A DNA stretch of 22,214 nucleotides, from positions 1-22,214 of IMG/VR virus record IMGVR_UViG_3300017960_000303; one strand, given 5' to 3'. Position numbers and translations under genes: made by a program. Source of the stretch: a virus. The notes beneath the pieces are model-generated. The model was not told the DNA's origin and did not search any database. It worked only from the letters and a program-made list of their open reading frames with translations. Below, in pieces: positions 3,111-20,081 of this stretch. The stretch's first letter is position 1; the number at the start of each line of letters is the position of its first letter.

Positions 3111-4088
3111 TTAGGAGTTAGTTCCGTTCGATCCGAAGATGTACATCGGATAACCAGTACCGAGAGTGTAGAAGAAATCAACACTGTATTCCCAGTCTTT
3201 GTTAGCATATACTTCTTCAGGCGGATCTAGAGAAGGTCGTTCTGCGAATAAGAGCCGCAGTGTCTTCGCAACGTATTGCGAATCACACATGAACCAATAT
3301 GCAGAAGTATCGGTTCCATCTGCAGCTGCCTCTAACCGTTCCCAAACGATCAGCTTCATTGAACGCAACATCATGTTGGTATCATTGTTAGCAGAGCCTG
3401 AGATCTTGTCAGAGTACAGTATCCTTCGTGCCTCATCTTCAAGAGATGGAGGAACAATCACGGTGTCAAGACGAACTGGACGTACGAGATTGTTAACATC
3501 CTTCATTACCTTTGCGGTAGCGATTTGCTGAACGACAGCAGTACGACTCAATGATGGGTTATCATTGGTACCATCGTTCATGATGTTATTAAAGGTGTTA
3601 CTGTTAATTGGATTTGAGTGGACTTTACTAAACAAAGCCAACGAATCCGGACCAACTGAGGCGACAGTGTCTCCCCAGTAGTCTGTATAGGAAGTGCTCC
3701 ATCCTTGCAATAGAACATCAGCCATGGTTTGATCAATTCCGTTCCAACCTTCGTCGACAACGGTTTCGACCATTCCATAAGCTTTGTCATATCGATCGAA
3801 CTTTCGCATTTCCTTTGAGACAGGTACGATTGCACCATAATGTCTCTGTGTGAGAGTAAGTTGATCACCCTCAACGTTTTCGATGCGTGGTAGATTCTCA
3901 CTATCGCCAACTCTTCGAATACCCTTCAGGCCATGTAAGTTCTGAATGACATAGTCATAAAGTTCAGTTTCCTGAACTCCGAACAGATCAAGACCACCCA
4001 TGCGAGCGATCGCTAGGTTTGAAGTCTCTTCAAAGATATCTTGGAGATCACCAGTTAATGCATCGAAGTCAGAGCGACGTATTGGCAT
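3111..4088 (-). CDS. Major capsid protein (HK97-fold family)
   Basis: A 325-residue protein. The start MPIRRSDFDALTGDLQDIFEE, the central YGAIVPVSKEMRKFDRYDK and the later DTVIVPPSLEDEARRIL and WEYSVDFFY are typical of phage major capsid proteins of the Mu gpT / HK97-fold kind. There the protein forms the E-loop, P-domain and A-domain of capsomers. Gene order (scaffold-like, decoration-like, this gene) and length agree. No N-terminal delta domain is apparent, in keeping with a separate scaffold gene. The start is ATG with an A/T-rich leader and no Shine-Dalgarno sequence. Confidence 0.88.
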   Translation of the reverse strand: MPIRRSDFDALTGDLQDIFEETSNLAIARMGGLDLFGVQETELYDYVIQNLHGLKGIRRVGDSENLPRIENVEGDQLTLTQRHYGAIVPVSKEMRKFDRYDKAYGMVETVVDEGWNGIDQTMADVLLQGWSTSYTDYWGDTVASVGPDSLALFSKVHSNPINSNTFNNIMNDGTNDNPSLSRTAVVQQIATAKVMKDVNNLVRPVRLDTVIVPPSLEDEARRILYSDKISGSANNDTNMMLRSMKLIVWERLEAAADGTDTSAYWFMCDSQYVAKTLRLLFAERPSLDPPEEVYANKDWEYSVDFFYTLGTGYPMYIFGSNGTNS

Positions 4089-5703: not shown

Positions 5704-7684
5704 TTGGTATTACTTTCTCTGATTGATTAATCGCTCTCTTCAAATTATTTGGATCGAGCTTCTGTCCTCCTTGACCTTGTTGTCCTGGTATTTGATCTAA
5801 AGCACTCAGAGCTGGTTGGCTCTTAATAACTTTTGATGGATCTTTCCCATAGACTTCTGCAAGAGCTTTGAGAGATTCTTCTTGATTAACCATCGGATCT
5901 TCACCAGTAAGTTTTCTCCAAGCAATCTCATTCTCTTTCTTTTCTCTCTCAGTTTCTTTGAGAGATGAGTTCGGAACAAGTTCAGCAACGATCTTTGCAT
6001 TACGAATTGCTGATGGCTTAATATCAACAACTTGTGAGTTCTCTTCTGTTCTCTCATTTAGAACGTTAAGTTGCTCTTGTGGTCTTGGGTTCTGACGAAT
6101 ATTAATCTCCATCTTTCCAAGAGCATCATTTAGAAGTCTAACGTTCTCAACTACAACCTTGCGATGCTTACCAGTTGACTTTAGTCTTTTTGAATAATAG
6201 TATAGTAAATTCTTAGCTCTTTGTTCAAGTCTTGCTTCTTCAGCCCACTCCATCTGTTTTAGAAACAAACCCATAATCTCTAACGAAGCTTGTCTTGCAG
6301 TAGCAACTTCTTCAGCTGTTCTTACACGACCTGCTCCAGCAATACCTGATTGTTCATGTCCAGTTGATGTTGACTCATTCATCCGTTGTTGCATCACATT
6401 TAATAGCCCAGTCGAGAAGTTTGTCTGTGGAGAGATCTTGAACTCTCTAATTGAGTTTAGATCTGTACCTTGGTCTAAGTCAATTACGTTTGCAGGATAT
6501 AACCAATCTAGATCGATGTCAGAACCAGATGCATTAAAGATCGGAGACTTCAATGCAATGAACATCTGGTCGAGAGTCATATTCCAAATTGCATTTGTCA
6601 TATCTTGAAACGATGCTAACTTAAACGGTAAGCTCATTCCGAGATAGTAGTTCACACTGAGAGGTTCAAATCTGGTTAGATGTAATGGTATCTGTCCATG
6701 AACGTATGTCTTAGATAACGGATTCTCTGGCTCTGTCAGCAAGATGTTATTTGCCATCACATCGAATGTGTCTGTCAGGATATTCCAATACTTTCGAACA
6801 ATAACTTTATCGCCAGCCTCAGCACCGTGTGGGAGTCCAAATGTTTTTACTTCAGACTGTTGATATGCTGAGAGTGGCTGTACTTTATGGATATTCGAAT
6901 AATCTGCGTATTCTTTTTTAAATGTGTCGAAGTCTGGTAACAACTCAATAGCAGCTCGACCCATCTCTTGAACTGAGAGTTTCGTTATATCGCCTGGGAC
7001 AAAACTCTCGATCGGTATAAGCCAACTCATGACATCTTCATAGTCATAGATTGACTTATACTTCCAATTCCCTCTGCGAGATCTAGAAGTTTTAACTCGA
7101 CGTCGCCCTTCGTAATATCCCTCCTCTCGAAGAGCTGCACCTTTGATCGCAGCTTCAAACATTGTATAGAAGAGAAGGATCTCTTCGCTGCCAACCCCAT
7201 ACTTACCTCTTGCTGAGTTCTCGTATAGGTTTGTTATGACTTTCGGTGTTTTCGAATCAAAGCCTTCGGCGTCCCGGAAACGGACCATGATACGTTGAGC
7301 AGCAAGACGAGCGAGGACTGCTAGCATTTTGTTTCGAGTTACTGGATCGAAGACATCTGCTTGCCAATCATCTTTGTAATCAGGTTTCTCAGAGATCGAA
7401 TTAACTCTCTTGTGACTCTCTCTCCAGTATTGCTCTGGCTTGAGTTGAGTTTGGTTCTCTCCCTGACCTAACAACTCTGATGGCTTGTCTCGTTGGTCCT
7501 TCATAACTCGAATCTCTTCAACTCTGTCAGCAACATAATCTTCTTCATGTGCAGTCTGCTTCGACTTCTTTACCATGATATGAAGATCTTTGATTTTCTC
7601 GCCTGGTTTCAGTTGCTGGTTCTTTCTTGTATCTTGCTGTAAGAACTTTTCGTCTTCTACTCTTACTTTGATTTTAGATGGCAT
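5690..7684 (-). CDS. Portal protein (P22-like type)
   Basis: A 664-residue protein three bases after the large terminase gene. The portal forms the ring at one capsid vertex through which DNA is packaged and ejected. Supporting features are its size and position and the middle segment LSVNYYLGMSLPFKLASFQD, which resembles portals where the chain passes the wing and clip. The region ISPQTNFSTGLLNVMQQRMNE followed by TAEEVATARQ also fits; the last motif is common in P22-like portals. The C-terminus carries a Gln/Gly-rich stretch (DQIPGQQGQGGQKL). The start is ATG without a Shine-Dalgarno sequence. Confidence 0.85.
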   Translation of the reverse strand: MPSKIKVRVEDEKFLQQDTRKNQQLKPGEKIKDLHIMVKKSKQTAHEEDYVADRVEEIRVMKDQRDKPSELLGQGENQTQLKPEQYWRESHKRVNSISEKPDYKDDWQADVFDPVTRNKMLAVLARLAAQRIMVRFRDAEGFDSKTPKVITNLYENSARGKYGVGSEEILLFYTMFEAAIKGAALREEGYYEGRRRVKTSRSRRGNWKYKSIYDYEDVMSWLIPIESFVPGDITKLSVQEMGRAAIELLPDFDTFKKEYADYSNIHKVQPLSAYQQSEVKTFGLPHGAEAGDKVIVRKYWNILTDTFDVMANNILLTEPENPLSKTYVHGQIPLHLTRFEPLSVNYYLGMSLPFKLASFQDMTNAIWNMTLDQMFIALKSPIFNASGSDIDLDWLYPANVIDLDQGTDLNSIREFKISPQTNFSTGLLNVMQQRMNESTSTGHEQSGIAGAGRVRTAEEVATARQASLEIMGLFLKQMEWAEEARLEQRAKNLLYYYSKRLKSTGKHRKVVVENVRLLNDALGKMEINIRQNPRPQEQLNVLNERTEENSQVVDIKPSAIRNAKIVAELVPNSSLKETEREKKENEIAWRKLTGEDPMVNQEESLKALAEVYGKDPSKVIKSQPALSALDQIPGQQGQGGQKLDPNNLKRAINQSEKVIPNEGI

Positions 7685-10643: not shown

Positions 10644-10936
10644 ATTGTCTTCCTTGCCTTCTTGACGGCATAGCGTACTGCTTGTTCGATCTGTTGTTGA
10701 CGAACTCCCTTCCGATCGAGCTCGTACGCCTTCACGTCTATACGATCTGAAGGCTTAATTTTTAGAAACCCTCTGTCTAACAATGAATAGAAGGTTTTGT
10801 ATGTCAATGTCTCAGCGAGACGTTGATCGTCATGATGTAGCCAGTAACTGCGTGAACCTCGTATGTTAGTTGTTCTGATCTCCCAGCCATCATTGAGAAG
10901 TGAGAGAATTCTTTTCTGATTTGATGTTAGTTTCAT
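10640..10936 (-). CDS. Winged-helix-like DNA-binding protein, first gene of leftward operon
   Basis: A 98-residue protein. LTSNQKRILSLLNDGWEI, then LAETLTYKTFYSLLDRGFLK and a two-strand YELDRKG segment, fit a winged helix-turn-helix layout (helix, wing-adjacent strand, recognition helix near residues 45-57). The basic C-terminal helix (RYAVKKARKTI) would add DNA contact. As the first gene after the control region, it could regulate late transcription, including its own. This is inferred from fold pattern and position only. Confidence 0.65.
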   Translation of the reverse strand: MKLTSNQKRILSLLNDGWEIRTTNIRGSRSYWLHHDDQRLAETLTYKTFYSLLDRGFLKIKPSDRIDVKAYELDRKGVRQQQIEQAVRYAVKKARKTI

Positions 10937-10942
10937 AGGAAT

Positions 10943-10960
10943 GTCTGAACGTAACGTATG
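10943..10960 (+). repeat. Direct repeat copy 1 (second copy at 11111-11128)
   Basis: GTCTGAACGTAACGTATG here and GTCTGAACGTTACGTTTG at 11111-11128 agree at 16 of 18 bases. Shorter GTCTGAAG words occur at 11103 and 11141. Copy 1 lies just before the first leftward gene, within its mRNA leader, so the repeat may be an operator or RNA-binding site. No function is proven. Confidence 0.55.
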
Positions 10961-11354
10961 TCATGTATACTCCTGTACGCACTAGAAAAAATTCGTACGC
11001 GCCTGTTCTATTACGTCAACGTATATGTTTATATACGACGGTGGCGTTTTATGCCCGTGAGCGCGTTTGTGTGCGAGCGCTGACGAGCGAGAGCGTGCCC
11101 GTGTCTGAAGGTCTGAACGTTACGTTTGGCTTGTGTCAGAGTCTGAAGGCGTCCTGGAGCAGCTTCTGACGTATAGCATCGTTCACGTGCGAGCACGAGC
11201 GAATGCGCCTAAGCGCTTTATCATTATCGTTATCGTTAGTCTATAGCTATTAGTCTACTACTAGTCCTCTACTGTATACGTTCTATAGGAATTATTTTTC
11301 TTTTATTCTACACGTATCATTGTCTTCTATAGACTACGTATAGTATACGTACAG

Positions 11355-11384
11355 TATAGTATAGTATAGTATAGTATAGTATAG
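11355..11384. repeat. Six tandem copies of TATAG
   Basis: An exact 5-base repeat occurs six times, followed by TACTAG and a further TATAGTATAC. The surrounding 11331-11410 is rich in GTATAC and TAGTA words. Easily melted A/T tandem repeats can occur at origins, but replication slippage is enough to explain the array. Similar words recur inside the dNMP kinase gene near 22041. Confidence 0.85.
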
Positions 11385-11583
11385 TACTAGTATAGTATAC
11401 GTCCTTCTCTACGTACGCTACGTGTGCGTATGTGAGCGTGTAAGAGCAGGGAAATGATACTAGAGAGAACACTGTGACATTAGTTGCTTGTTCTTCAGTA
11501 TCAACGTCCTGCTCTACACTCCTCATAACCTGCGCTCCCTTTACAGCACACTCTCGGAAAACGCTAGTAAAATGATTAATTTA

Positions 11584-11612
11584 ATTATAATATAAAATGC
11601 AACATTTGTAAA
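11584..11612 (-). promoter_or_regulatory. Leftward sigma70-like promoter
   Basis: On the minus strand, TTTACA (11607-11612) and TATAAT (11584-11589) are separated by exactly 17 bases. Both boxes match or nearly match the bacterial consensus. Transcription would start near 11576 and cross about 640 untranslated bases before the first leftward gene. It is the best leftward candidate seen for the head operon. Confidence 0.7.
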
Positions 11613-11682
11613 ATATTAATCTCGCAAATCAAGGCTTGAAAACGCATAAAAATCGAGTGAAAACGAGGAGCAAAATGATAAA

Positions 11683-11699
11683 AAATAAATAATTTATTT
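11683..11699. repeat. A/T inverted repeat between the divergent promoters
   Basis: AAATAAAT and ATTTATTT are perfect 8-base complements around a single A. The one-base gap makes a DNA-binding dyad more plausible than an RNA hairpin. It lies between the leftward (11584) and rightward (11744) promoters, where a shared regulator could act. The A/T-only sequence makes chance occurrence possible. Confidence 0.45.
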
Positions 11700-11743
11700 G
11701 CTGCAACATTACAGCGAGAAGTGAGTTATTAACAGCTGAACCA

Positions 11744-11772
11744 TTTACAATCTTTTTAAAATGTGATATTAT
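11744..11772 (+). promoter_or_regulatory. Rightward early promoter
   Basis: TTTACA (11744-11749) and TATTAT (11767-11772) are 17 bases apart. The bases after the -10 box, one base then AAACTGT, are repeated at the same offset after the second rightward promoter at 13524. This suggests a conserved initial transcribed region. Transcription would begin near 11780 and give a leader of about 67 bases before the first early gene. Confidence 0.75.
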
Positions 11773-11831
11773 GAAACTGTACCAATCAAAATCGCACTTT
11801 ACATCACAGCTCAAACGCTGACATAATAATT

Positions 11832-11846
11832 AACTCTCGCAAAATT
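11832..11846 (+). promoter_or_regulatory. AACTCTCGC start leader, copy 1
   Basis: TAATTAACTCTCGC stands immediately upstream of the ATG at 11847. The same TAATTAACTCTCGC precedes the ATG at 14233. The two genes are paralogues, so the leader was probably duplicated with the gene. The AACTCTCG box is also the opening box of the intergenic hairpin elements. Downstream GAGT inside the coding sequence could pair with ACTC and place the start codon in a loop. Confidence 0.55.
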
Positions 11847-12116
11847 ATGAGTGAAGCAAAAACAGCTGTCCGATTCTTAATTAATCTCGACTCGGGCAAA
11901 GTTTTAGACACAGGTAAACGAGGGAGAATGAGAAGGTTACAGAGGAAGCTCGCTGAAGAAGGTACCGAAGCAATCGTTACCAAGTTCAGCTCTCTCTCTG
12001 AACGCAAGAATGCCCTTCAGCCCAAGACGAAGCAGGGCACGAATATGAAGGGGGGCAAAGGGAAACGCAGAAAACCTCGCAAACCATTACCTGAAGTCAC
12101 GGGAGCTACTAAATAA
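11847..12116 (+). CDS. Lys-rich early protein, paralogue 1 of 3
   Basis: The first early gene, 89 residues. The front half, VRFLINLDSGKVLDTGKRGR followed by MRRLQRKLAEEGTEAIVTKF, aligns with the proteins at 14233 and 16061. The shared pattern is hydrophobic strand, SGK(V/I), a turn, a basic helix with LR-like residues, then (V/I)xKF. The back half is a Lys/Arg/Gly/Pro tail (KGGKGKRRKPRKPLPE). A beta-beta-alpha-beta fold with a basic tail suggests nucleic-acid or ribosome binding, which is inference. A hairpin element follows its stop. Confidence 0.75.
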   Translation: MSEAKTAVRFLINLDSGKVLDTGKRGRMRRLQRKLAEEGTEAIVTKFSSLSERKNALQPKTKQGTNMKGGKGKRRKPRKPLPEVTGATK

Positions 12117-12117
12117 T

Positions 12118-12166
12118 AACTCTCGACTGAAGCCGACTTCAATACGACCTCGGCTTCAGTAAAGTT
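12118..12166 (+). repeat. Stop-proximal hairpin element E0
   Basis: It opens with AACTCTCG one base after the TAA stop. ACTGAAGCCGA (12126-12136) pairs perfectly with TCGGCTTCAGT (12150-12160), 11 bp with a 13-base loop. AACT at the start can pair with AGTT at 12163-12166 as a basal stem. The tail AGTTCTTATTATTAAGA resembles the leader after E1 and E2. There is no T run, so it does not look like an intrinsic terminator. Confidence 0.75.
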
Positions 12167-12183
12167 CTTATTATTAAGAATAA

Positions 12184-12429
12184 ATGATGACAGACTCGAA
12201 AAAAGTTAGTCTCGAGGTAGCTGTCTCGATGGTTGCAGACGCAATTGCGTACCACGCTGTTAAACAGTATGATGAGTACGTTGCAAACGTCGTTCCTGAG
12301 CACGTCGACCGTTTGATTAAAGAACGTTCCGACGAGGAAATCAATCCTGCAACGCTTGAGGACGATATTTATGCTGCGTTGTATAAAGCAACAGCGAGTG
12401 AGCTAGGTATGATAGCGAGACATAACTAA
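12184..12429 (+). CDS. Small acidic early protein, unknown
   Basis: An 81-residue, mostly helical and acidic protein (MMTDSKKVSLEVAVSMVADA, then YDEYVANVVPEHVDRLIKER). It has no cysteine and no membrane segment. Either of two adjacent ATGs (12184, 12187) could be the start. It is flanked by elements E0 and E1 and transcribed with the other small early genes. Such proteins often act on host functions, but none is recognised here. Confidence 0.7.
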   Translation: MMTDSKKVSLEVAVSMVADAIAYHAVKQYDEYVANVVPEHVDRLIKERSDEEINPATLEDDIYAALYKATASELGMIARHN

Positions 12430-12471
12430 CTCTCGGCTGTTCATTACGTCTGTAGTGAGCAGCAATGAGTT
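12428..12471 (+). repeat. Stop-anchored hairpin element E1
   Basis: AACTC begins within the TAA stop codon. After TCG, GCTGTTCATTAC (12436-12447) pairs with GTAGTGAGCAGC (12452-12463) over 12 bp including G-U pairs, with loop GTCT. After AAT, GAGTT (12467-12471) is the exact complement of the opening AACTC. The first nine bases of the 5' arm equal those of E3, while the 3' arms differ but still pair. Confidence 0.82.
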
Positions 12472-12494
12472 CCTAACAAATTAAGAGCACGCGT
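12472..12494 (+). promoter_or_regulatory. Shared start leader, copy A
   Basis: CCTAACAAATTAAGAGCACG followed by CGT lies directly before ATG. It matches the leaders before 12937 and 13583 almost base for base. The only Shine-Dalgarno resemblance is a weak GAG. Conservation across unrelated genes points to translation initiation or a protein-binding role. Confidence 0.6.
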
Positions 12495-12818
12495 ATGCCT
12501 TACAGAATACCTGGTTGTGAGAGCCGCAATCATTCAATCTGTATTGGTACGAAAGATGACCTCTGGCAATGTGCAAATTGTGGTAAAACAGTTTGCCTTG
12601 CTGAAGGAAGCAGTGCAAAGCCACAGTATTGTGACGACTGCTGGAATGTCTATCAAGAATTGACAGACGTCATTCTTTCATTATCAATGCAAAAGGTATG
12701 TGAGTACCTTGACATCGATGTCTACGCTATTGCTGACAGGCGTATCAATCGTGAAGACATGTCAGCCAATCTCGCACTCGAGATACTCGAGGAGATTAAA
12801 GACAAAGAGGGGCTTTAG
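12495..12818 (+). CDS. Zinc-ribbon early protein
   Basis: A 107-residue protein. The pairs CANCGKTVC (about residues 27-35) and YCDDCW (about 51-56) form a probable four-cysteine zinc site. Further Cys/His residues precede it (CESRNHSIC). A helical acidic C-terminal half follows (TDVILSLSMQKVCEYLDIDV, ending LALEILEEIKDKEGL). Small zinc-ribbon proteins are common among phage early genes and usually bind nucleic acid or host protein. The precise role is unknown. It is set between E1 with its leader and E2. Confidence 0.75.
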   Translation: MPYRIPGCESRNHSICIGTKDDLWQCANCGKTVCLAEGSSAKPQYCDDCWNVYQELTDVILSLSMQKVCEYLDIDVYAIADRRINREDMSANLALEILEEIKDKEGL

Positions 12819-12915
12819 AACTCTCGGTGCTCTCTCATCTAACGGAAGCCTTGGCTAGGGAGGAGGCTGTGGCTATCAATTCTCACCTCCCGCTGATGGG
12901 AGAGTGCAATGAGTT
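12819..12915 (+). repeat. Stop-anchored hairpin element E2 (branched)
   Basis: AACTC follows the TAG stop with no gap. GTGCTCTCTCATC (12827-12839) pairs with GATGGGAGAGTGC (12895-12907), 13 bp with wobbles. GAGTT (12911-12915) closes the basal stem. The 55-base interior has substems GGGAGG/CCTCCC and AGCC/GGCT, so the RNA is probably branched. The 5' arm GTGCTCT is also complementary to AGAGCAC in the downstream leader, which allows an alternative pairing. Confidence 0.8.
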
Positions 12916-12936
12916 CTTAACAATTAAAGAGCACGT
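12916..12936 (+). promoter_or_regulatory. Shared start leader, copy B
   Basis: The leader CTTAACAATTAAAGAGCACG followed by T lies directly before ATG at 12937. It is nearly identical to copies A and C. Its TAAAGAGCACGT (12925-12936) is the exact reverse complement of a 12-base stretch inside element E5. Confidence 0.62.
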
Positions 12937-13260
12937 ATGGCGAAAGTAAAAGTCACCATACACTACGAACTGACTCTTGACGTAGAAGACGAGTTCGACT
13001 ACGACGCGATTCAGAAACAAGTGTATGAGGAGCTCGTTAATAATGACAACCAGCACGGTGCATTTGACGAGCTTTACGAAGATGCCAAAGTTGTGACTCT
13101 CGTACACAAGAAGCGAACGTGTCCAGGTTGCTTGAAAGTCTTTACAGGCTTTCCTGCACTTTCTCGCTATGAGCACGGAGACATTTGCAGTGATTGTGGT
13201 ATGAGAGAAGCATTCGACGGCGACTTCATCTCCAGACAGAAAGGAGGTGAGAGTAAATGA
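12937..13260 (+). CDS. Zinc-binding early protein (TGxPALSR...CSDCG type)
   Basis: A 107-residue protein. An N-terminal beta-like part (KVKVTIHYELTLDVEDEF) is followed by CPGCLKVFTGFPALSR (from about residue 62) and DICSDCGMREAF (near 82-93), a likely Cys4 zinc ribbon. The block FTGFPALSR...ICSDCG.REA is one I recognise from many phage and some bacterial small proteins of unknown function. Its stop overlaps the next start by four bases (ATGA), so the two are coupled. Confidence 0.75.
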   Translation: MAKVKVTIHYELTLDVEDEFDYDAIQKQVYEELVNNDNQHGAFDELYEDAKVVTLVHKKRTCPGCLKVFTGFPALSRYEHGDICSDCGMREAFDGDFISRQKGGESK

Positions 13261-13466
13261 GTGAGTTAACTTTATCTTACGAGAAGCCTACAATTCAGCT
13301 TACAGGAAATGATGGTAATGCTTTTGCTATCCTCGGCAATGTTCGCAGAGGTATGAAGAGAGCAGGAGCAACTGATGAAGAGCTAAAAGCTTTTATGAGT
13401 GAAGCGACATCAGGAGACTATGACCATCTTCTACAGACCTGTATGAAGTATGTAGACGTTAGATAA
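13257..13466 (+). CDS. Conserved small phage protein (GNDGNAFAILG type)
   Basis: A 69-residue protein. The segment TIQLTGNDGNAFAILGNVRR and the C-terminal SGDYDHLLQTCMKYVDV belong to a small protein found widely in phages and usually annotated as hypothetical. Its partner immediately upstream, a zinc protein, overlaps by four bases. The predicted structure is a short strand, a helix and a second helix. Function unknown. Element E3 starts inside its stop codon. Confidence 0.8.
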   Translation: MSELTLSYEKPTIQLTGNDGNAFAILGNVRRGMKRAGATDEELKAFMSEATSGDYDHLLQTCMKYVDVR

Positions 13467-13508
13467 CTCTCGGCTGTTCATCTTGCTCGAGGTGGACAGC
13501 AAAAAGTT
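13465..13508 (+). repeat. Stop-anchored hairpin element E3
   Basis: AACTCTCG begins in the TAA stop. GCTGTTCATCTTG (13473-13485) pairs with CGAGGTGGACAGC (13488-13500) along all 13 positions with some G-U. The two-base loop means that one or two inner pairs must open. AGTT (13505-13508) can close on AACT. Compared with E1, U-G and U-A pairs are swapped at two positions while pairing is kept. A promoter follows. Confidence 0.8.
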
Positions 13509-13523
13509 ATTAACAAGTCAACG

Positions 13524-13552
13524 TTTACAAAGTTTTACAAATTTTATATAAT
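13524..13552 (+). promoter_or_regulatory. Second rightward early promoter
   Basis: TTTACA (13524-13529) and a perfect TATAAT (13547-13552) are 17 bases apart. One base then AAACTGT follows, as after the promoter at 11744. It sits between the closing box of E3 and the start leader, where E1 and E2 have no insert. It therefore looks like a promoter module added to an element. Confidence 0.82.
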
Positions 13553-13558
13553 TAAACT

Positions 13559-13582
13559 GTTCCTAACAATTAAAGAGCACGT
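13559..13582 (+). promoter_or_regulatory. Shared start leader, copy C
   Basis: GTTCCTAACAATTAAAGAGC followed by ACGT lies directly before ATG at 13583. It matches copies A and B. Since the promoter at 13524 would start transcription near 13560, this leader could form nearly the whole 5' untranslated region of that transcript. Confidence 0.62.
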
Positions 13583-13912
13583 ATGAGAATCTGGCACGAA
13601 GAGCTAATTCCGAAGCTCTGCCGTCAACATCTCTTAGCAGTTTGGAGAGAGGCTCTCGGATGTTATTCAATTATTGTGAATAACAAGAGTGGCTATCGCA
13701 ATCATCCTGCTGTCAAAGAGTTTGAAGACGCACCAGTCAGGCTCTGGTATCGCTTATGTGCAATTCGAGCAGAGATGTGTCGTAGGGGCTATTGCCCAAA
13801 GCCACTGCCGAAGATACACGTTAAGCACAGAGTTGAAACGCTCAGAGAATGGCAAACACTTCCTGAGCAGATCGAAGTTCTTAAATCTAAGAACTGTGAC
13901 TGTGATGTTTAA
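13583..13912 (+). CDS. T4 endonuclease V-like pyrimidine-dimer glycosylase
   Basis: A 109-residue protein that begins MRIWHEELIPKLCRQHLLAV and continues WREALG. The spacing matches T4 endonuclease V (DenV) at its N-terminus: Gln15, His16, Leu17, Arg22 and the catalytic Glu23 fall at the same numbers. The RLCAIRAEMCRRGY helix matches LRKRQIELIAECLKRGF of DenV. The enzyme excises UV dimers using the N-terminal amine of Thr2. Here residue 2 is Arg, as in a bacterial subfamily starting MRLWH, so activity may differ. It is shorter than DenV (138) and is expressed from its own promoter. Confidence 0.78.
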   Translation: MRIWHEELIPKLCRQHLLAVWREALGCYSIIVNNKSGYRNHPAVKEFEDAPVRLWYRLCAIRAEMCRRGYCPKPLPKIHVKHRVETLREWQTLPEQIEVLKSKNCDCDV

Positions 13913-13928
13913 TTCACTAAAGACGAGT

Positions 13929-14135
13929 ATGGCAGACGAACAAATCTTCTATCAATCCTTCGGTCATTTCCCAGGCTATCCTGGTGAAGGAGGAGCGAAT
14001 AGAAAGACCTTAAGAGATGCTCTTCTCGACGCAGTCGAGATGATGACTCGAGAAGGTTGTCATTACGTAGACATCTTCAAAAAGAATGAAGACTACGAAC
14101 TTCTAGCTCGATGGGAGCTTAGAAGAGTTGAGTAA
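13929..14135 (+). CDS. Small acidic early protein, unknown
   Basis: A 68-residue protein (MADEQIFYQSFGHFPGYPGE followed by GGANRKTLRDALLDAVEMMT). The frame opens much further upstream, but that would overlap the glycosylase gene completely. The ATG at 13929 follows TAAAGACGAGT, a variant of the shared leader, so it is preferred. The protein combines an aromatic, Gly-rich start with an acidic helix and a short strand (HYVDIFKKNEDYELLARWEL). No family recognised. Confidence 0.65.
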   Translation: MADEQIFYQSFGHFPGYPGEGGANRKTLRDALLDAVEMMTREGCHYVDIFKKNEDYELLARWELRRVE

Positions 14136-14201
14136 CTCTCGGCTACTCTTCTCACTACAAGCATGGGGAGACAAGGCAACTTGTTCCTTGAGGAGAGTAG
14201 C
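14134..14201 (+). repeat. Stop-anchored hairpin element E4
   Basis: AACTCTCG begins in the TAA stop. GCTACTCTTCTCA (14142-14154) pairs with TGAGGAGAGTAGC (14189-14201), 13 bp with one G-U. Inside, ACAAG-GCAA-CTTGT makes a hairpin with a GNRA tetraloop, extended by GGGGA/TCCTT across a bulge. The closing GAGTT box is missing (AAAGATGTT instead), so this copy has a weaker base. Confidence 0.8.
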
Positions 14202-14221
14202 AAAGATGTTATTTAATAATT

Positions 14222-14232
14222 AACTCTCGCGT
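14222..14232 (+). promoter_or_regulatory. AACTCTCGC start leader, copy 2
   Basis: TAATTAACTCTCGCG precedes the ATG at 14233 and matches the leader before the paralogous gene at 11847. The AATTAA core and the CGCGT just before ATG also match the shared leader before 12495. Confidence 0.55.
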
Positions 14233-14667
14233 ATGTATTATCTCATCAACAAATCAACAGGTGAGATAGTCGAAGAAAACGAGACAAAGAGTCGACTTCG
14301 TAAAAAGCAGAAGACTATGAAGAACAGAACAGACTACAAAGTGAGTAAGTTCAAACCCGGCGAGGGACGTCATGGTTCAGTCAAAAGCAAAGTTGGCCGA
14401 GGCAAAGGATTCTCTGCTCGATGGAACAGAGATCGTATTGCTAAGGAACAAGCTGAGATTGACGAACGCGTCCGCAAACATTTACCGCCGTGGGATTTGT
14501 TCATGCCCACTGATGAACGCCTTCGTAAAATCTGGCGAAGTGGCAAAGCTCACTTTATCGGAGGTGAGAAGAACAACGACATAAGACTCGATGGAAAGAC
14601 AATCCCAAAGAATCGTCTCAATCGACTATCGCACAAACTAAATCAACCTGGAAATCATGGGTACTAA
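14233..14667 (+). CDS. Lys-rich early protein, paralogue 2 of 3
   Basis: A 144-residue basic protein. Residues 1-41 (MYYLINKSTGEIVEENETKS, then RLRKKQKTMKNRTDYKVSKF) align with the modules at 11847 and 16061. After a Gly/Lys segment (GRHGSVKSKVGRGKGF) comes a second part unique to this copy, with ARWNRDRIAKEQAEIDERVR and PPWDLFMPTDERLRKIWRSG. That part may be a separate small domain. It shares an upstream leader with paralogue 1. A nucleic-acid-binding role is suggested by charge only. Confidence 0.72.
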   Translation: MYYLINKSTGEIVEENETKSRLRKKQKTMKNRTDYKVSKFKPGEGRHGSVKSKVGRGKGFSARWNRDRIAKEQAEIDERVRKHLPPWDLFMPTDERLRKIWRSGKAHFIGGEKNNDIRLDGKTIPKNRLNRLSHKLNQPGNHGY

Positions 14668-14908
14668 GAAAAGGAGACAACGAACACTGTATAAAGTGAT
14701 TAGTGTTCACAATAAAGCTAAAGGTCGATGGATCCAACGGTATTCACGTAAAGAACGTCGTACTGCTTGGATCTACCAGCCACCGATACCAATTAAAAAT
14801 GGTTGTGTCAGAGTTGAGGCTGTCTTTCAAAGAGGAAACTCCTTTTGGACTACTCACACTGACATACCGAAAGACGTATGCAAATCGAGATTAGCAAAGG
14901 CAGATTGA
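14657..14908 (+). CDS. Small basic early protein, unknown
   Basis: An 83-residue, strongly basic protein (MGTKKRRQRTLYKVISVHNK, then AKGRWIQRYSRKERRTAWIY). Alternating strands continue in VRVEAVFQRGNSFWTTHTD. It overlaps the preceding gene by 11 bases and the following one by 31. The other frame at 14703 is a less plausible shadow. No family recognised. Basic, beta-rich small proteins may bind nucleic acid. Confidence 0.6.
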   Translation: MGTKKRRQRTLYKVISVHNKAKGRWIQRYSRKERRTAWIYQPPIPIKNGCVRVEAVFQRGNSFWTTHTDIPKDVCKSRLAKAD

Positions 14909-15078
14909 AGTTCCTCATAAAGATCCTTCGTATCCGAAGAGACTATCTCCAAGGCTTACCAACGTTCTTTCACGGAACAAACTCAACTGCTGCTAGAAAC
15001 AGGGAGAAGATACAAGAACTCGAGGAGAGTGTCAATTTTTTGATTGATGCAGGTAAACTCGGACTTAAGAAGTATTAA
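14878..15078 (+). CDS. Small helical early protein, unknown
   Basis: A 66-residue protein: MQIEISKGRLKFLIKILRIR then a loop and NREKIQELEESVNFLIDAGK. It forms a probable two-helix hairpin. The start overlaps the preceding gene by 31 bases, which is long but in the style of this cluster. Element E5 starts inside its stop codon. No family recognised. Confidence 0.6.
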   Translation: MQIEISKGRLKFLIKILRIRRDYLQGLPTFFHGTNSTAARNREKIQELEESVNFLIDAGKLGLKKY

Positions 15079-15191
15079 CTCTCGGCTGACTATCATCTGG
15101 GCTAAATAGATGTCATAAGCTATACCTTCTTCGCTTCACTCAAGCGACGTGCTCTTTACTTCCTCATATAGGTGGTAGTCAGCAATGAGTT
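15077..15191 (+). repeat. Stop-anchored hairpin element E5 (branched, with anti-leader)
   Basis: AACTC begins in the TAA stop. GCTGACTATCATCT (15085-15098) pairs with AGGTGGTAGTCAGC (15170-15183), 14 bp, and GAGTT (15187-15191) closes the base. The 71-base interior has TCGCTT/AAGCGA around CACTC. It also holds ACGTGCTCTTTA (15147-15158), the exact reverse complement of the shared start leader at 12925-12936 and 13571-13582. Confidence 0.82.
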
Positions 15192-15280
15192 AGTTCTTTT
15201 GTTACCCTCCCTGTTCTGGCTGCGAGAGTCCGGAACCTAAGCTCAGTTCTAGAATGAGGGGGAGGGCAACAAGAGAATTA
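15191..15280 (+). other. Second large hairpin directly after E5
   Basis: Bases 15191-15211 and 15260-15280 pair over about 21 positions with one A-C mismatch and a few G-U pairs; the core is CTTTTGTTACCCTCCC / GGGAGGGCAACAAGAG. Pairing continues inward (TGTTCT against AGAATG with a bulge). It shares base 15191 with E5. The first micro-gene starts ten bases later. It has no AACTCTCG box. Confidence 0.78.
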
Positions 15281-15290
15281 AAATATAACA

Positions 15291-15380
15291 ATGTTCTGTA
15301 TTCACACATTGATCATCGGAGTACTATTCGGCTTCATCTTAGCAGTTATACTTCGAGCGATCTTCGAAGCTTATGAGTAA
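15291..15380 (+). CDS. 29-residue single-pass membrane microprotein
   Basis: ATG at 15291 encodes MFCIHTLIIGVLFGFILAVI, then LRAIFEAYE and a stop. Residues 6-21 form a clear membrane helix followed by Arg, so an N-out, C-in orientation is possible. It overlaps the next micro-gene by eight bases. It is too small to classify. Holin-like, toxin-like or membrane-modulating roles are all possible. Confidence 0.6.
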   Translation: MFCIHTLIIGVLFGFILAVILRAIFEAYE

Positions 15381-15489
15381 GAGACTTTACAACAGAGGAG
15401 ACTGGTTCTGGATGATGATCGTCTTTCTGATGTATTTCTATTGCATCTGGAGCGTTGTACCATTCATCTGGAGAGTAATTTTTAAGTGA
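15373..15489 (+). CDS. 38-residue membrane microprotein
   Basis: ATG at 15373, overlapping the preceding stop by eight bases, encodes MSKRLYNRGDWFWMMIVFLM followed by YFYCIWSVVPFIWRVIFK. A basic, cytoplasm-type N-terminus leads into an aromatic-rich membrane helix (about residues 11-33). With its partner it resembles a two-gene membrane module. A lysis or host-membrane role is speculation. Its TGA stop lies inside the 5' arm of the next hairpin. Confidence 0.6.
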   Translation: MSKRLYNRGDWFWMMIVFLMYFYCIWSVVPFIWRVIFK

Positions 15490-15587
15490 CGTGCAGTCGA
15501 CGACAAGCAAAAGAATCTCTGAAACGATCGCACTGGCCCTGGCTCGACTTTCCGTTTAGGAGAATCATTCGACTGCACCTCACTTAA
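15482..15587 (+). other. Long-stem hairpin spanning a stop codon
   Basis: AAGTGACGTGCAGTCGA (15484-15500) is complementary to TCGACTGCACCTCACTT (15569-15585) at 16 of 17 positions, with two more A-T pairs outside. A second stem, TCTCTGAAACG/CGTTTAGGAGA (10 of 11), lies within. The TGA stop of the preceding gene is part of the 5' arm. TAATAATTAAAGACGCG follows, then the next ATG. Unlike E0-E5 there is no AACTCTCG box. Confidence 0.78.
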
Positions 15588-15606
15588 TAATTAAAGACGC
15601 GAAGCT

Positions 15607-15816
15607 ATGTTAGAACTAAGTCGTCTCGATGAGCCTGTAGCAACTCTCTTTCTTGAGAGAGACGCAGACCACTCAACGATACAAACAACTGGGAAAAGAA
15701 AAGACCTCATCGCTCTTATTGCAGACGCTGTCAGTAAAAGTGACGAGCTAAGGGTTCTTTTTCTGCAAGGGATCTCAATCGGGGAAACAAAAAAGTATGA
15801 CAGTGCTGCTGGGTAA
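15607..15816 (+). CDS. Small acidic early protein, unknown
   Basis: A 69-residue protein: MLELSRLDEPVATLFLERDA, then a helix KRKDLIALIADAVSKSDELR and a strand VLFLQGISIGE. The start follows AATTAAAGACGCGAAGCT, a variant of the shared leader. It overlaps the next zinc-ribbon gene by 20 bases. No family recognised. Confidence 0.65.
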   Translation: MLELSRLDEPVATLFLERDADHSTIQTTGKRKDLIALIADAVSKSDELRVLFLQGISIGETKKYDSAAG

Positions 15817-15961
15817 AAAGATACCTTGTCCAAAATGTCACGCAGAAGCAGTGATACTACTGAACGAAGGACGTTACTTTGTTCAGTGTTATACCTGTTT
15901 GTATTATGGCTATTTAAAAGAGTACCATAAGAAGTCGTATAGGAGCCAAAACAGTACCTAG
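15797..15961 (+). CDS. 54-residue zinc-ribbon protein
   Basis: ATG at 15797 encodes MTVLLGKKIPCPKCHAEAVI followed by LLNEGRYFVQCYTCLYYGYL and a basic tail ending at TAG. CPKC and CYTC, about 20 residues apart, form a probable Cys4 zinc ribbon like those in many small nucleic-acid or protein-binding factors. It overlaps the preceding gene by 20 bases. A hairpin follows its stop. Confidence 0.7.
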   Translation: MTVLLGKKIPCPKCHAEAVILLNEGRYFVQCYTCLYYGYLKEYHKKSYRSQNST

Positions 15962-15967
15962 TTTAAC

Positions 15968-16015
15968 TTTAGAGAGAAAAATAGTAGTATTACACTACTA
16001 GCACATCTCTTTAGA
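15968..16015 (+). other. A/T-rich nested hairpin after zinc-ribbon gene
   Basis: TTTAGAGAG (15968-15976) pairs with CTCTTTAGA (16007-16015) with two G-U pairs. Inside it TAGTAGT (15982-15988) pairs perfectly with ACTACTA (15994-16000). It starts six bases after the TAG stop. The remaining bases to the next ATG (16016-16060) are A/T-rich with no clear promoter. Confidence 0.6.
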
Positions 16016-16060
16016 TATAAAGGTCGAATATTATTAAGAAACATTTAACCAACAGACACT

Positions 16061-16396
16061 ATGGCTAAAAAGAAAAATGGAACTGGCAACGGCAAGTTCC
16101 ACATCGTTCACAAAGTCTCTGGCAAAGTAGTTGCTTCAGGAGACAACAAACCAAAACTGCGCAAGCAGAAGAACGAGATGAAAGACGGTGATCAATACAT
16201 CGTCTCCAAGTTTGCTGGGCTACGTCCAGTAAAGGAGAAACCAAACAAACCCGTTAAAGAAAAGAAGGAGAAGAAAGCTAAGAAAACTAAGAAAGTCAAG
16301 AAGACCAAGCAAGAAGACGGGCTCACAGCTGAGCAAAAAGAAGCACGTAAAGCTCGTGCTAAAGCTCGCCGTGAAAGAAAAGCTAAGAAAGACTAA
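16061..16396 (+). CDS. Lys-rich early protein, paralogue 3 of 3
   Basis: A 111-residue protein with about half of its second part Lys or Arg. Residues 10-50 (NGKFHIVHKVSGKVVASGDN, then KPKLRKQKNEMKDGDQYIVS and KF) match the module at 11847 and 14233. The tail (KEKKEKKAKKTKKVKKTK and KARKARAKARRERKAKKD) looks like a histone H1-like or ribosomal-protein-like tail. It could bind DNA or RNA without sequence preference. AACTCTC overlaps its stop, but no hairpin follows, and the next gene starts 12 bases later. Confidence 0.75.
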   Translation: MAKKKNGTGNGKFHIVHKVSGKVVASGDNKPKLRKQKNEMKDGDQYIVSKFAGLRPVKEKPNKPVKEKKEKKAKKTKKVKKTKQEDGLTAEQKEARKARAKARRERKAKKD

Positions 16397-16407
16397 CTCT
16401 CAAGACT

Positions 16408-16869
16408 ATGGCTAAAGACTTAGGAGCCACGATCGATAAGCTAAAAGTCAATGTCAAAGCAGGGTACATTAGAAAACTGAACATGCATGCTCACGGTGGT
16501 CTTCAATTTGAAACCACTGATGTTCACGCTATCTTCGAGGCTAAAGACGTTTCAATTGAACACGCGAATGAAGTTCATTCATTGCTCTCAGAGAAGGCTA
16601 AATACATCATCGAGACTGAGATCGCTAAGATCGAAGGTGCAGTTCAAGATCCTGTTTCGAAGGAGAAAGGCAAAGGTCTTAGTAAAAAATCATTCGAGAA
16701 GATCATGCCACTCTTCAACGACATTACGATGGCGTCTAGTCTTGCAGAGTTAAAGAAGGTGAGGAGTCAATTACGTACTGCTAAAGAAAAAGGAACTTAT
16801 TCAACTAAGCAATACAATCATTTGGCTCGTCACTACAAACAGCGACGTAAACAACTAAAGAACAAGTAA
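16408..16869 (+). CDS. Unknown protein upstream of nuclease gene
   Basis: A 153-residue basic protein. An N-terminal part with LNMHAHGGLQFETTDVHAIF and FEAKDVSIEHANEVHSLLSE suggests alpha/beta structure. The C-terminal part is helical and Lys-rich (KKVRSQLRTAKEKGTYSTKQ, then YNHLARHYKQRRKQLKNK). Its stop abuts the start of the nuclease gene (TAAATG), which suggests shared expression. It may take part in DNA processing, but no family is recognised. Confidence 0.7.
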   Translation: MAKDLGATIDKLKVNVKAGYIRKLNMHAHGGLQFETTDVHAIFEAKDVSIEHANEVHSLLSEKAKYIIETEIAKIEGAVQDPVSKEKGKGLSKKSFEKIMPLFNDITMASSLAELKKVRSQLRTAKEKGTYSTKQYNHLARHYKQRRKQLKNK

Positions 16870-17652
16870 ATGCTCGAAAAGATAAGCCACTCAGGGATCA
16901 AGGATTACTTGAAGTGTCCGCTTCTCTTCTATTATCGACACGTTCTTGGTATAAGAGTCGCTGAAAGACCAATACCGTTAGTCTTCGGTGGAGCAATACA
17001 TAAAGCAGTAGAGCTCTACGAAAAGAACGGAGACGATCCACTCGAAGTTTTTGAAGATAACTTTGAACCTGATAAGATTGATTACTTCGATCGGTTCGGG
17101 AGAGAATTATCTACAAGACAAGCAGATGATGTCTATGAAACCAACTTAGAGAACGGCTTTCGTTTACTCGACCACTTCGTCGAAGAACGAGAGACCGGAA
17201 TTCTAAAGGACTACGAAGTCGTATCAACAGAGCGTTACTTTAGAAGAAGGTTGCGTCATCCTATTACTCACGACCGAGTCAAAGTGAGATGGATGACAGG
17301 TATTGTAGACTTCATTCTCGAGGATGGCAGGTTCGGAGACTATAAGACGAGTGGTAAAACCTATAAGCAAGCAACAGTCGATGAGTCGTTGCAACCAACG
17401 ATGTACTATTTATGGTACTATCTAACTTATAGGAGACTACCAAAAAGCTTTGTCTATATTGTCTTTCTGAAACGACGCAAGACTAATCCGATCCAGGTAC
17501 TAGAGACTCATCGTACATTAACACAACTTGGTGAGCTCGTTGATCTAATTAACGAGATCGCAGTAAAGGTCGAGAAAAAACAATTCAAACGAAGTCACGG
17601 TGAGAAAGCTTATTGTGATTGCTTCCGTTATGAAAAGCTACTAAACGTATGA
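16870..17652 (+). CDS. PD-(D/E)XK nuclease, RecB/Cas4-like
   Basis: A 260-residue protein of the RecB-exonuclease/Cas4 superfamily. Motifs in order: SGIKDYLKCPLLFYYRHV near the N-terminus, GGAIHKAVELY with His44, GIVDFILEDG with Asp147, GDYKTSG with Asp157 and Lys159, and QPTMYYL with Gln175. All the catalytic residues are present. Cys16 and CDC (248-250) hint at a metal or Fe-S site, but only three cysteines are placed as in Cas4. Phage versions process DNA ends for recombination or replication. It overlaps the next start by four bases. Confidence 0.85.
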   Translation: MLEKISHSGIKDYLKCPLLFYYRHVLGIRVAERPIPLVFGGAIHKAVELYEKNGDDPLEVFEDNFEPDKIDYFDRFGRELSTRQADDVYETNLENGFRLLDHFVEERETGILKDYEVVSTERYFRRRLRHPITHDRVKVRWMTGIVDFILEDGRFGDYKTSGKTYKQATVDESLQPTMYYLWYYLTYRRLPKSFVYIVFLKRRKTNPIQVLETHRTLTQLGELVDLINEIAVKVEKKQFKRSHGEKAYCDCFRYEKLLNV

Positions 17653-18120: not shown

Positions 18121-18520
18121 ACGTGCTCTCAAGAGGGTTGGCATCAAGAATGTAAAGTTCTTACTTACTCGCGAAGACGAAGCAATAGTCCTACTCTCTG
18201 AGAATACCTTCAATCAAGTTAAGATCGTATATCCGAAAACCTGTAAGAAGATTTCAGCAATACTTGACTTTACTGATAAAGATCAAGCATGGCTAGATAG
18301 CTTACTCGCAGAGTATAAAGAACATCTAACTCTGAAAGAGATGGTACAACAAGCAGAGAAGATGTCTGACTGGCTGAAGAAGAAGCACATTCAAGATGGC
18401 AATACGAAGAGTCGTTATCGGACGTTCCTCCGTAAAGAAGTTCGTTGGAGAAAGGAACGCCAGCAAAACGGTGGCGAGAAGAACCTTGATCCAGAACTTT
18501 TACGAAAGCTGAATGACTAA
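18098..18520 (+). CDS. Unknown basic protein upstream of primase-helicase
   Basis: A 140-residue basic protein. The N-terminal alpha/beta part (MIDKNNLKRALKRVGIKNVK, FLLTREDEAIVLLSE) is followed by a long helical, Lys/Arg-rich part (LKEMVQQAEKMSDWLKKKH, RTFLRKEVRWRKERQQN). It overlaps the primase-helicase start by eight bases, so it may belong to the replication module, for example as a loader or accessory protein. That is inferred from location only. Confidence 0.68.
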   Translation: MIDKNNLKRALKRVGIKNVKFLLTREDEAIVLLSENTFNQVKIVYPKTCKKISAILDFTDKDQAWLDSLLAEYKEHLTLKEMVQQAEKMSDWLKKKHIQDGNTKSRYRTFLRKEVRWRKERQQNGGEKNLDPELLRKLND

Positions 18521-20081
18521 AAACACAAAGAGAATGCTCAAGGCTGCTCTAAACTATCGCAGCAAAGGTCTCTCTGTTATTCCAGTCGGTGAGAACAAGA
18601 AGCCAATCTTTCCGTGGAAGAAGTATACGAAAACTCTCCCAACGAAAGAGCAGATCAAAGAATGGTGGTCAGAATATCCCGATGCTAATCTTGCTATCAT
18701 CACTGGAGAGATCTCAAACTTAACTGTCGTCGACGTTGAGAAAGATGGAGAGACAGATGGTTATCCTGAGACTCTTACTTGTAAGACAGGTGGAGGTGGG
18801 TTTCATTTTTATTATCAATACTCTGAACGCTTCAAGAATAAGGTAAGAGTCAGAGAACTTACTGATATAAGAAACGACTCAGGCTATGTTGTAGCTCCTC
18901 CATCAATACATCAATCTGGCAAAAGATACAAGTGGTTCGCTCGGAATAAGATAGCACCGTTCCCAGTCAAGCTATTTTATAAAGAGGCAGAGAAGCAAGC
19001 TAAGACTGATGAATGGGAAGAGTCTCTCGAGGGAGTCTCAGAAGGAAGCCGTAATGAGACTGCTGCTAAAGTATGTGGTCTCTTCTTAACAAAGACAAGT
19101 TACAAACTCTGGGAACGTATTGCTTGGCCAGCTGTTAAAGAATGGAACAAGCAAAACGATCCGCCGCTAAGCAACAAAGAACTCCGTGGAGTCTACGATA
19201 GTATAGCAAGTCGAGTCACTTACCATCGTGAAGACACTGAGCAAGAAGTCTTAGCACTTGTCGATGTTACGAAAGAACATAAGGAAGTAATGAAGAGAAG
19301 ACGCGGCGGTCTTGAGTCAGGAGTACCTTCTGGCTTTGAGCAACTCGATCGGAAGTTAAATGGTGGTTTCAAGAAGGGTGACTTTATTGTCATCGGAGCA
19401 AGGCCATCAGTTGGAAAGACAGCACTGGCACTAACGCTTGCGTATAATGCAGCACTGAAAGACTTTAAGATACTGTTTTTCTCTATTGAGATGAGTTCTA
19501 TTGATGTATATGATAGGATCTTATCTTTTATAACGAAAAAACGTTGCAGCGATATTATACAAGGCAAGCTAAAGAAAGAGCTTCAAACAAAAGCATACCG
19601 CAGAGCTAACAAACTCGGGATCTCGATCGTTGAGTTAGCGAAAGCTACTTCATCAGAAGTGATTGAGGTTACAAAACAGCATCTCATCACGTCAGACGTT
19701 GACATGATTATCGTAGACTACCTTCAGTTCTTACGAGACGATGGTAGAAACAAATCAGAAGCGAATCGTGTTGGGAACATCTCAAAGAACCTCAAGATGC
19801 TCGCTCGTATGACAAACATACCAGTGATAGCACCAGCACAACTTAATCGTAAAGCAGAGGGCCGTGGTCACGGTAACCCAAAGCTGCAAGACTTAAGAGA
19901 CTCTGGTAACATCGAAGCAGATGCAGATGTTGTATTCTTACTACATCGTAGTCTCTCAATGGAACACAGAGAGAATGCTTTCTTAGATATTGCTAAGAAT
20001 AGAAAAGGAGAGACTGGTGCAGTACGTCTACGCTTTAACTCAAGGACAACGAGATTTGAGATCAATGACCAAGCGCCTTAA
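18513..20081 (+). CDS. PrimPol-DnaB fusion primase-helicase
   Basis: A 522-residue replication protein. Residues about 1-160 are an archaeo-eukaryotic-type primase/polymerase domain: VVDVEKDG (Asp74, Glu76), GGGGFHFYY (His98) and DIRNDSGYVVAPPS. A PriCT-like linker follows (SEGSRNETAAKVCGLFLT, 176-193). Residues from about 265 form a DnaB-family RecA-fold helicase with Walker A GARPSVGKT (295-303), Walker B IIVDYLQF (399-406), a Gln-rich H4-like APAQLNRKA, and arginine-finger-type AKNRKGETG. One protein could both unwind and prime. It overlaps the next gene by 17 bases. Confidence 0.9.
   Translation: MTKNTKRMLKAALNYRSKGLSVIPVGENKKPIFPWKKYTKTLPTKEQIKEWWSEYPDANLAIITGEISNLTVVDVEKDGETDGYPETLTCKTGGGGFHFYYQYSERFKNKVRVRELTDIRNDSGYVVAPPSIHQSGKRYKWFARNKIAPFPVKLFYKEAEKQAKTDEWEESLEGVSEGSRNETAAKVCGLFLTKTSYKLWERIAWPAVKEWNKQNDPPLSNKELRGVYDSIASRVTYHREDTEQEVLALVDVTKEHKEVMKRRRGGLESGVPSGFEQLDRKLNGGFKKGDFIVIGARPSVGKTALALTLAYNAALKDFKILFFSIEMSSIDVYDRILSFITKKRCSDIIQGKLKKELQTKAYRRANKLGISIVELAKATSSEVIEVTKQHLITSDVDMIIVDYLQFLRDDGRNKSEANRVGNISKNLKMLARMTNIPVIAPAQLNRKAEGRGHGNPKLQDLRDSGNIEADADVVFLLHRSLSMEHRENAFLDIAKNRKGETGAVRLRFNSRTTRFEINDQAP

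Follow-up and report, generated by a model that had tools for sequence, protein, structure and literature searches.

Intercistronic RNase III sites have a general role in the processing of phage T7 mRNA. One of them, R1.1, is a 60-nt hairpin of the early region with a 4/5 internal loop, which lies between genes 1.0 and 1.1 and is cut by RNase III (PMC6121014). The promoter early stem-loops (PeSLs) of T4-type phages are early-gene stem-loops that sometimes stand directly before a conserved early promoter, where gene content is variable; PMC3950731 and PMC4503421 give background on them. The halovirus HGTV-1 has a repeated motif that contains an inverted repeat and adjoins a promoter-like element, and PMC3950731 likens it to PeSLs. 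Here, we analyzed a 22,214-nt stretch of a tailed phage (positions 1 to 22,214 of the 22.2-kb viral record IMGVR_UViG_3300017960_000303; "the window" below) together with related phages, and we found that most sizeable gaps between their early genes carry a hairpin whose foot lies at or just after the stop codon of the upstream gene and whose pairing is kept while its sequence is not. These elements resemble the T7 RNase III sites in being hairpins of about two turns, with internal loops, that lie in early-operon gaps and need no T run. They share with PeSLs their place at early genes of variable content and, in some cases, a conserved promoter directly behind them, and in this they also recall the HGTV-1 motif. 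Like repetitive extragenic palindromes (REP) and repeats of the miniature inverted-repeat transposable element (MITE) type, they are palindromes repeated in gaps, with an exact 50-nt duplicate in one relative.

The initial annotation of the window had described six elements, E0 to E5, each opening with the box AACTCTCG at a stop codon. All six boxes are present where it had placed them: one base after the stop codon in E0, directly after it in E2, and inside it in E1, E3, E4, and E5. The six elements, with their structures, are

12117-12166 (+): E0, box at 12118-12125, 11-bp stem, weak foot, stop-proximal
12427-12471 (+): E1, foot of 5 bp that overlaps the stop codon at 12427-12429, then a 3x3 internal loop and a 12-bp stem closed by a 4-nt loop
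12817-12917 (+): E2, foot of 7 bp, then a 3x3 internal loop and a 13-bp stem that carries a long structured loop
13464-13509 (+): E3, foot in which the stop codon is paired, then a 4x4 internal loop and a 12-bp stem
14133-14211 (+): E4, foot containing the stop codon, then a 2x2 internal loop and a 13-bp stem topped by an 11-nt one-sided bulge
15076-15192 (+): E5, foot containing the stop codon, then a 3x3 internal loop and a 15-bp stem; loop of 71 nt by the neutral search

Compared with shuffled sequence, the folds of E0 to E5 had z values of -5.2, -6.1, -3.2, -5.5, -6.1, and -4.0. E1, E2, E3, and E5 follow a common design, with the stop codon at the foot, a foot helix of 5 to 7 bp, a 3x3 internal loop (4x4 in E3), and a stem of 12 to 15 bp; across E1, E2, and E5, the box and a UCG/AAU internal loop are nearly invariant. 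The closing sequences are those first described, GAGTT in E1, E2, and E5 and AGTT in E0 and E3. The inner stems measure 11, 12, 13, 12, 13, and 15 bp and thus exceed the upper end of the 11 to 14 bp given before, and the apical loops measure 4 to 71 nt, which matches the upper but not the lower bound of the earlier range of 2 to 71. No T run follows the elements, as had been claimed, except for E5, which GTTCTTTT follows. An internal loop 6 to 9 nt after the stop codon was considered as a group-wide rule and rejected; it is found in E1, E3, E4, and E5 (2 nt later in E2) and not in E0, nor generally in the relatives.

Relatives were gathered by profile scans of viral contigs and one set of genomes, and three of them were used for the early region: L007 (45.6 kb; helicase 60% and terminase 50% identical to the window's), L077 (46.6 kb; terminase 56 to 57%), and L084 (10.5 kb; helicase 60%). 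We compiled the early gaps (40 nt or longer) manually from ATG reading frames, some of which were short, and obtained 31 gaps (8 in the window, 11 in L007, 10 in L077, and 2 in L084); the L077 gap at 17399-17516 overlaps a 48-amino-acid frame that was treated as spurious. Stems were sought neutrally, with G-U and A-C scored alike, and a stem was called strong at a score of at least 25 and anchored if its foot lay no more than 5 nt from the first base of the stop codon. These counts cover the 30 gaps of up to 330 nt, leaving aside a 464-nt gap of L077 (18748). As controls, we used 89 gaps from T7 (first 9 kb), lambda, T4 (first 50 kb), OP947159, MW202627, and AF, the typed genes of AF being only those beside gaps of at least 40 nt.

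An anchored strong stem was found in 19 of the 30 gaps and in 3 of the 89 control gaps (Fisher, 1e-11). When the six elements of the initial annotation were removed, the count was 13/24 (3e-8). Shuffles of the 30 gaps themselves gave an anchored strong stem in 16 of 600 cases, so base composition does not explain the anchoring. Folding strength was less distinctive, with z below -2 in 21/30 gaps versus 29/89 controls (p = 5e-4). T7 had z below -2 in 3 of the 6 gaps examined, but its best stems start 1, 10, 11, 17, 23, and 28 nt from the stop codon and none of the six reaches a strong score; in the first 50 kb of T4, none of 27 gaps had an anchored strong stem.

The far end of the hairpins was also placed with some regularity. 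From the end of the strong stem to the next start codon, the distance was 10 to 30 nt in 15 of 25 cases, shorter in 2, and longer in 8; among these 8, a promoter lies between in 3 (E3, L007 3935, and L077 16517) and further predicted helices lie between in another 3 (E5, L007 4222, and L077 18748). The helices of the 25 hairpins are 10 to 42 bp long (median, 23 bp, similar in size to the R1.1 substrate), and 22 of the 25 contain internal loops; in this set, the L007 4222 structure is a second helix of its gap. Several hairpins (L007 6717, L007 7896, L084 416, L084 781, and E4 of the window) have a one-sided bulge of 2 to 11 nt on the 5' strand that joins two stacked stems while the 3' strand is unbroken. 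The 19-nt junction at 13913-13931 holds no hairpin. Hairpins that lack the box stand in the window's own early gaps:

15197-15274 (+): second hairpin in the gap of E5, no box, z -3.43
15485-15584 (+): box-free hairpin, stop codon 15487-15489 in its foot; z -3.19 for the segment and only -1.31 for the whole gap
15962-16021 (+): box-free, stop-proximal hairpin, z -3.3 for the whole gap

Whether the pairing itself is kept was assessed on a hand alignment of the arms of E0 to E5 with the loops masked. Each of the six copies retains all 11 inner pairs, 9 of which have been altered on both sides, and 80% of the cells in the 5-bp foot are paired. The covariation score was 0.712, compared with 0.212 (standard deviation, 0.056) for shuffles and at most 0.146 when the partner strand was slid. 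One position has a U-G pair in five of the six copies, and the exchange of U-G for U-A pairs between E1 and E3 over a single 9-base 5' arm, which had been reported, is present in the sequence. Because the alignment was fitted to the structure and the copies come from one genome, these values show that pairing was kept and not how often it changed. A covariance model built from the six copies and run over 167 kb of the phage group, with rough E-values, regained four of its six sources, missing E2 and E5 with their long loops, and gave three foreign matches at an E-value of at most 1:

L077 4962-5015 (-): covariance-model match, E 0.023
L039 16289-16333 (-): covariance-model match, E 0.049
L077 5297-5347 (-): covariance-model match, E 0.18

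The two matches in L077 are stop-proximal early-gene hairpins in which every pair is standard. The L039 match, which scores between them, lies antisense within an open frame, has nonstandard pairs, and is probably due to chance. The model gave no match at an E-value of at most 1 in 368 kb of 12 other loci, and a scan of the window against 4,227 Rfam families at the gathering cutoff gave none.

Covariation was measurable within the six copies, as the initial annotation had suggested checking, and also between phages at one late junction:

1807-1850 (-): late-gene hairpin after the gene at 1868-2545 (-), with covarying counterparts in L078 and L077

A hairpin follows the counterpart of this gene in all five phages examined (z, -3.6 to -8.7); counterparts were matched by homology of a flanking gene or, for L077, by gene order. 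An independent consensus fold of the window, L078, and L077 sequences has 16 pairs, 8 of them with two-sided changes, and on the L078 structure, two-sided changes affect 7 of 23 pairs, with pairing in 96% of 53 cells. This late hairpin thus covaries between different phages, in three sequences only. A second set of late hairpins (A14) gave no consensus structure. Among 33 late and replication gaps taken from a simple longest-open-reading-frame caller, 17 had z below -2, but only 4 had a strong stop-anchored foot. That these gaps also fold well suits a general role in mRNA better than a switch confined to the early genes.

We then compared the two strands of the 31 early gaps, folding at most the first 250 nt of each. 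The coding strand had z below -2 in 22 gaps (7 in the window, 7 in L007, 6 in L077, and 2 in L084), or in 16 of 25 without the original six elements. Mean z was -3.23 for the coding strand and -1.99 for the complement, and the coding strand folded better in 26/31 gaps by z (Wilcoxon, 3e-5) and in 23 versus 8 by energy (p = 0.023). Since a G-U pair on one strand is an A-C mismatch on the other, a bias toward the coding strand points to RNA, and the molecule under selection is probably RNA. Within stems from the stricter neutral search, G-U outnumbered A-C by 44 to 30, which is not significant (p = 0.13), so the strand argument relies on the folding bias in 26 of the 31 gaps. An earlier and too lenient count, in stems scoring at least 18, had given 62 versus 62 and was discarded.

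The box that defined the elements in the initial annotation proved to be a feature of the window's species. AACTCTCG occurs nine times in the window where 1.71 copies are expected, a number reached in none of 100 shuffles. Six of the nine sit at stop codons, and each of these opens a stable hairpin; one, at 7003, lies inside a gene on the opposite strand. The remaining two stand near start codons:

11832-11839 (+): AACTCTCG box beginning 15 nt before the start codon at 11847, with no hairpin after it
14222-14229 (+): AACTCTCG box beginning 11 nt before the start codon at 14233, with no hairpin after it

Both of these precede genes of one small protein family, whose members begin MYYLINK. A near copy, AACTCTCA, at 16395 is located at a stop codon without a stem. 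In L007, L077, and L084, the coding strand of the early region contains no AACTCTCG, and a longer box pattern searched in the viral contig collection was found only in a contig of the same species. We therefore rejected the box as the defining part, given the start codon copies without a hairpin, the confinement of the longer pattern to the same-species contig in that search, and its absence from the relatives' early coding strands. As for the further copies in relatives that the initial annotation had asked for, the box is missing from those strands, but equivalent hairpins are there. The feature common to the group is the stop-anchored hairpin.

Two pairs of hairpins within single genomes are copies of one another. 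The L007 hairpins after 3583 and 4222 are identical over 50/50 nt, the identity beginning at the first base of the stop codon, and E1 and E3 of the window share 18/18 nt from the same point. A portable unit with its own stop codon would leave copies that begin at exactly this base, and the cassette behavior proposed in the initial annotation agrees with these two cases. Promoters were found behind some hairpins. In a recurring module, GTTATTAACA starts 18 to 21 nt before TTTACA-17-TATAAT; it stands after E3 and after the L007 3935 and L077 16517 hairpins, which are the three clear cases of hairpin plus promoter, and the L007 3935 and L077 16517 modules are 86% identical over 63 nt. The window has two modules:

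11725-11772 (+): early promoter module upstream of the first early gene; GTTATTAACA precedes TTTACA-17-TATTAT by 19 nt, counted from start to start
13506-13552 (+): promoter module downstream of E3; GTTATTAACA precedes TTTACA-17-TATAAT by 18 nt, counted from start to start

GTTATTAACA (11725-11734 and 13506-13515 in the window) or its reverse complement stands upstream of most early TTTACA-17-TATAAT promoters in the window, L007, L077, and L080, in direct orientation always 18 to 21 nt before the -35 element. We take it to resemble an operator or a DnaA-box-like site.

The promoter pattern occurs in only 5 of the 31 early gaps and T runs are mostly absent, unlike in PeSLs; the parallel drawn in the initial annotation is therefore partial, with features of terminators mostly missing. 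Nor does the genome look T4-type, given its PF25209/PF10124 capsid, contigs of 40 to 47 kb, and no megablast match to a phage. The HGTV-1 motif precedes open reading frames (PMC3950731), has a TATA-like box, and belongs to an archaeal virus. REP and MITE repeats differ in that most stems here lack a common sequence and the copies are found at gene ends on the coding strand. Our literature searches, made in a collection with few subscription journals, brought up no earlier description of such hairpins in phage gaps.

We favor, at a probability of about 0.5, the reading that the elements are RNA stem-loops at the cistron borders of long phage mRNAs that serve in processing or in protection of 3' ends. 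Each starts on the stop codon or shortly behind it, has a predicted helix broken by small internal loops, and usually ends about 10 to 30 nt before the next start unless a promoter or second hairpin intervenes. It thus fills the stretch covered by neither the terminating nor the initiating ribosome. A host enzyme specific for double strands, of the RNase III kind, may cut the helix, or the helix may block 3' exonucleases, and each cistron would then keep a folded 3' end right behind its stop codon and a short clean leader. Units may at times be copied along with the conserved early promoter, and one that carries its own stop codon could be copied between genes without harm. Several points weigh against this reading. 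Nine of the 31 early gaps fall short of z below -2, and the L077 gap at 20920 is without any hairpin. The control phage gaps have a weaker coding-strand bias of the same sign (50/89, p = 0.013). In five of six T7 gaps, the best stem starts 10 to 28 nt from the stop codon, and nothing in the sequence establishes recognition by RNase III. The covariation score, the coding-strand bias, and the late hairpin that covaries in three phages uphold the initial proposal of an RNA family in which pairing is kept. Taken together, the earlier observation is real and wider than first described, and its interpretation is partly supported.

Exchange at the DNA level, in which stem-loops beside promoters provide short homologies at gene borders for swapping early genes, as has been proposed for PeSLs, and the RNA fold is secondary, is possible but doubtful as the primary explanation. 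The copies that start at the first base of the stop codon fit it, as do the variable early gene content beside syntenic head and replication genes and the promoter module shared behind the L007 and L077 hairpins, with a similar one behind E3. However, the coding-strand bias and the recurrent U-G pair point to RNA, stems mostly without common sequence offer little homology, and late gaps have hairpins too. Exchange is a partner to the RNA-border reading, not its opposite. It is rather unlikely that the helix acts in translation, by separating the terminating ribosome from the next start or by presenting the next ribosome-binding site in a fixed way. The feet at stop codons, the 10- to 30-nt leaders, and the bare 19-nt junction would suit this role, but in most gaps the helices leave the next start site uncovered, and overlapping genes of the same operons manage without hairpins. 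A further idea, which we consider rather unlikely, is that the helix senses translation through the stop codon in its foot, so that untranslated cistrons are cut singly out of a shared mRNA. Terminating ribosomes would keep the short foot and the small internal loop open, and the inner stem that remained would not be long enough for a nuclease specific for double strands; once upstream translation stopped, the foot would close and the helix would reach two turns and be cut. If this were true, a stop codon with a gated cleavage site would form portable quality control cassettes for early genes.

Stable helices directly behind genes could also terminate or attenuate transcription, forming only where the gene before them is not being translated. 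In E. coli, translation of a gene lowers the efficiency of a terminator placed 5 bp behind its stop codon from approximately 90% to less than 10% (PMC4824070), and at such a distance, termination would depend on translation. U-rich tails were found in 2 of the 31 gaps (that of E5 and, by reading, the L077 gap after 21278) and not in the other 29, and a terminator scan of 10900-17000 gave 6 sites versus 4.6 in shuffles. Given the scarcity of such tails and that loss of efficiency near a stop codon, intrinsic termination is unlikely. Very unlikely, in our estimate, is a binding site made of AACTCTCG and stem for a phage protein, either an antiterminator or a translational repressor. The near invariance of box and internal loop in E1, E2, and E5 and the two start-proximal boxes before small basic protein genes speak for it; against it, the box is not on the early coding strands of L007, L077, and L084, the small basic protein has no PDB match at an E-value of at most 0.001, and the window has no Rfam match. 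The antitermination role named in the initial annotation found no support. Antisense action of loops on leaders was also considered. Positions 15147-15161 in the loop of E5 are complementary at 14/15 nt to a leader shared by two early genes (12922-12936 and 13568-13582; starts at 12937 and 13583) and 86% complementary over 14 nt to the leader before 12495. Duplex energies of the 31 gaps with their own start regions showed no general signal (the E5 gap ranked 23rd of 100 when set against shuffles), and the idea was rejected.

The window contains the following recognizable genes:

3111-4088 (-): capsid, matching PF25209 and PF10124
7688-9334 (-): terminase
16870-17652 (+): exonuclease
18513-20081 (+): primase-helicase

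The megablast search of the window was made against a phage collection. A 40-kb contig belongs to the same species, with 99.6 to 99.9% identity where compared, and another two match the window at 99.4% across 11 to 12 kb. Besides contigs of that species, the scans yielded L006/L007, L077, L084, and the terminase-side fragments L078, L080, and L081 (49 to 55% identity); all other matches were to a single replication protein only, at 22 to 33% identity. Head and replication genes are syntenic between relatives, and most early genes are without a counterpart. The early gene at 13583-13912 matches pyrimidine-dimer DNA glycosylase (PF03013, E 2e-21). The MYYLINK proteins are a paralogous family of small basic proteins with two or three copies per genome (11847, 14233, and 16061 in the window; 6382 and 8014 in L007; three in L077; 96 and 921 in L084). 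The window members have no Pfam or PHROG match, and the family, predicted to fold as strand-strand-helix-strand, has no PDB match at an E-value of at most 0.001. We considered these proteins as candidate RNA-binding partners of the hairpins. In the relatives inspected, a run of TAGTA/ATAGT repeats separates the divergent late and early modules (window, 11349-11390; L007, about 2918-2960; L077, about 6085-6165; L084, 1-90; also L078, L080, and L081) and is a possible replication origin.

These results describe a phage group in which most sizeable early-operon gaps hold a stop-anchored hairpin with its pairing kept and its sequence free, and they point to units of exchange that start precisely with a stop codon. 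If the helices set the ends of messages, they would be a compact way to give each gene on one long mRNA a stability of its own, and they would allow a straightforward check on whether ribosomes that terminate there govern access to a processing site.

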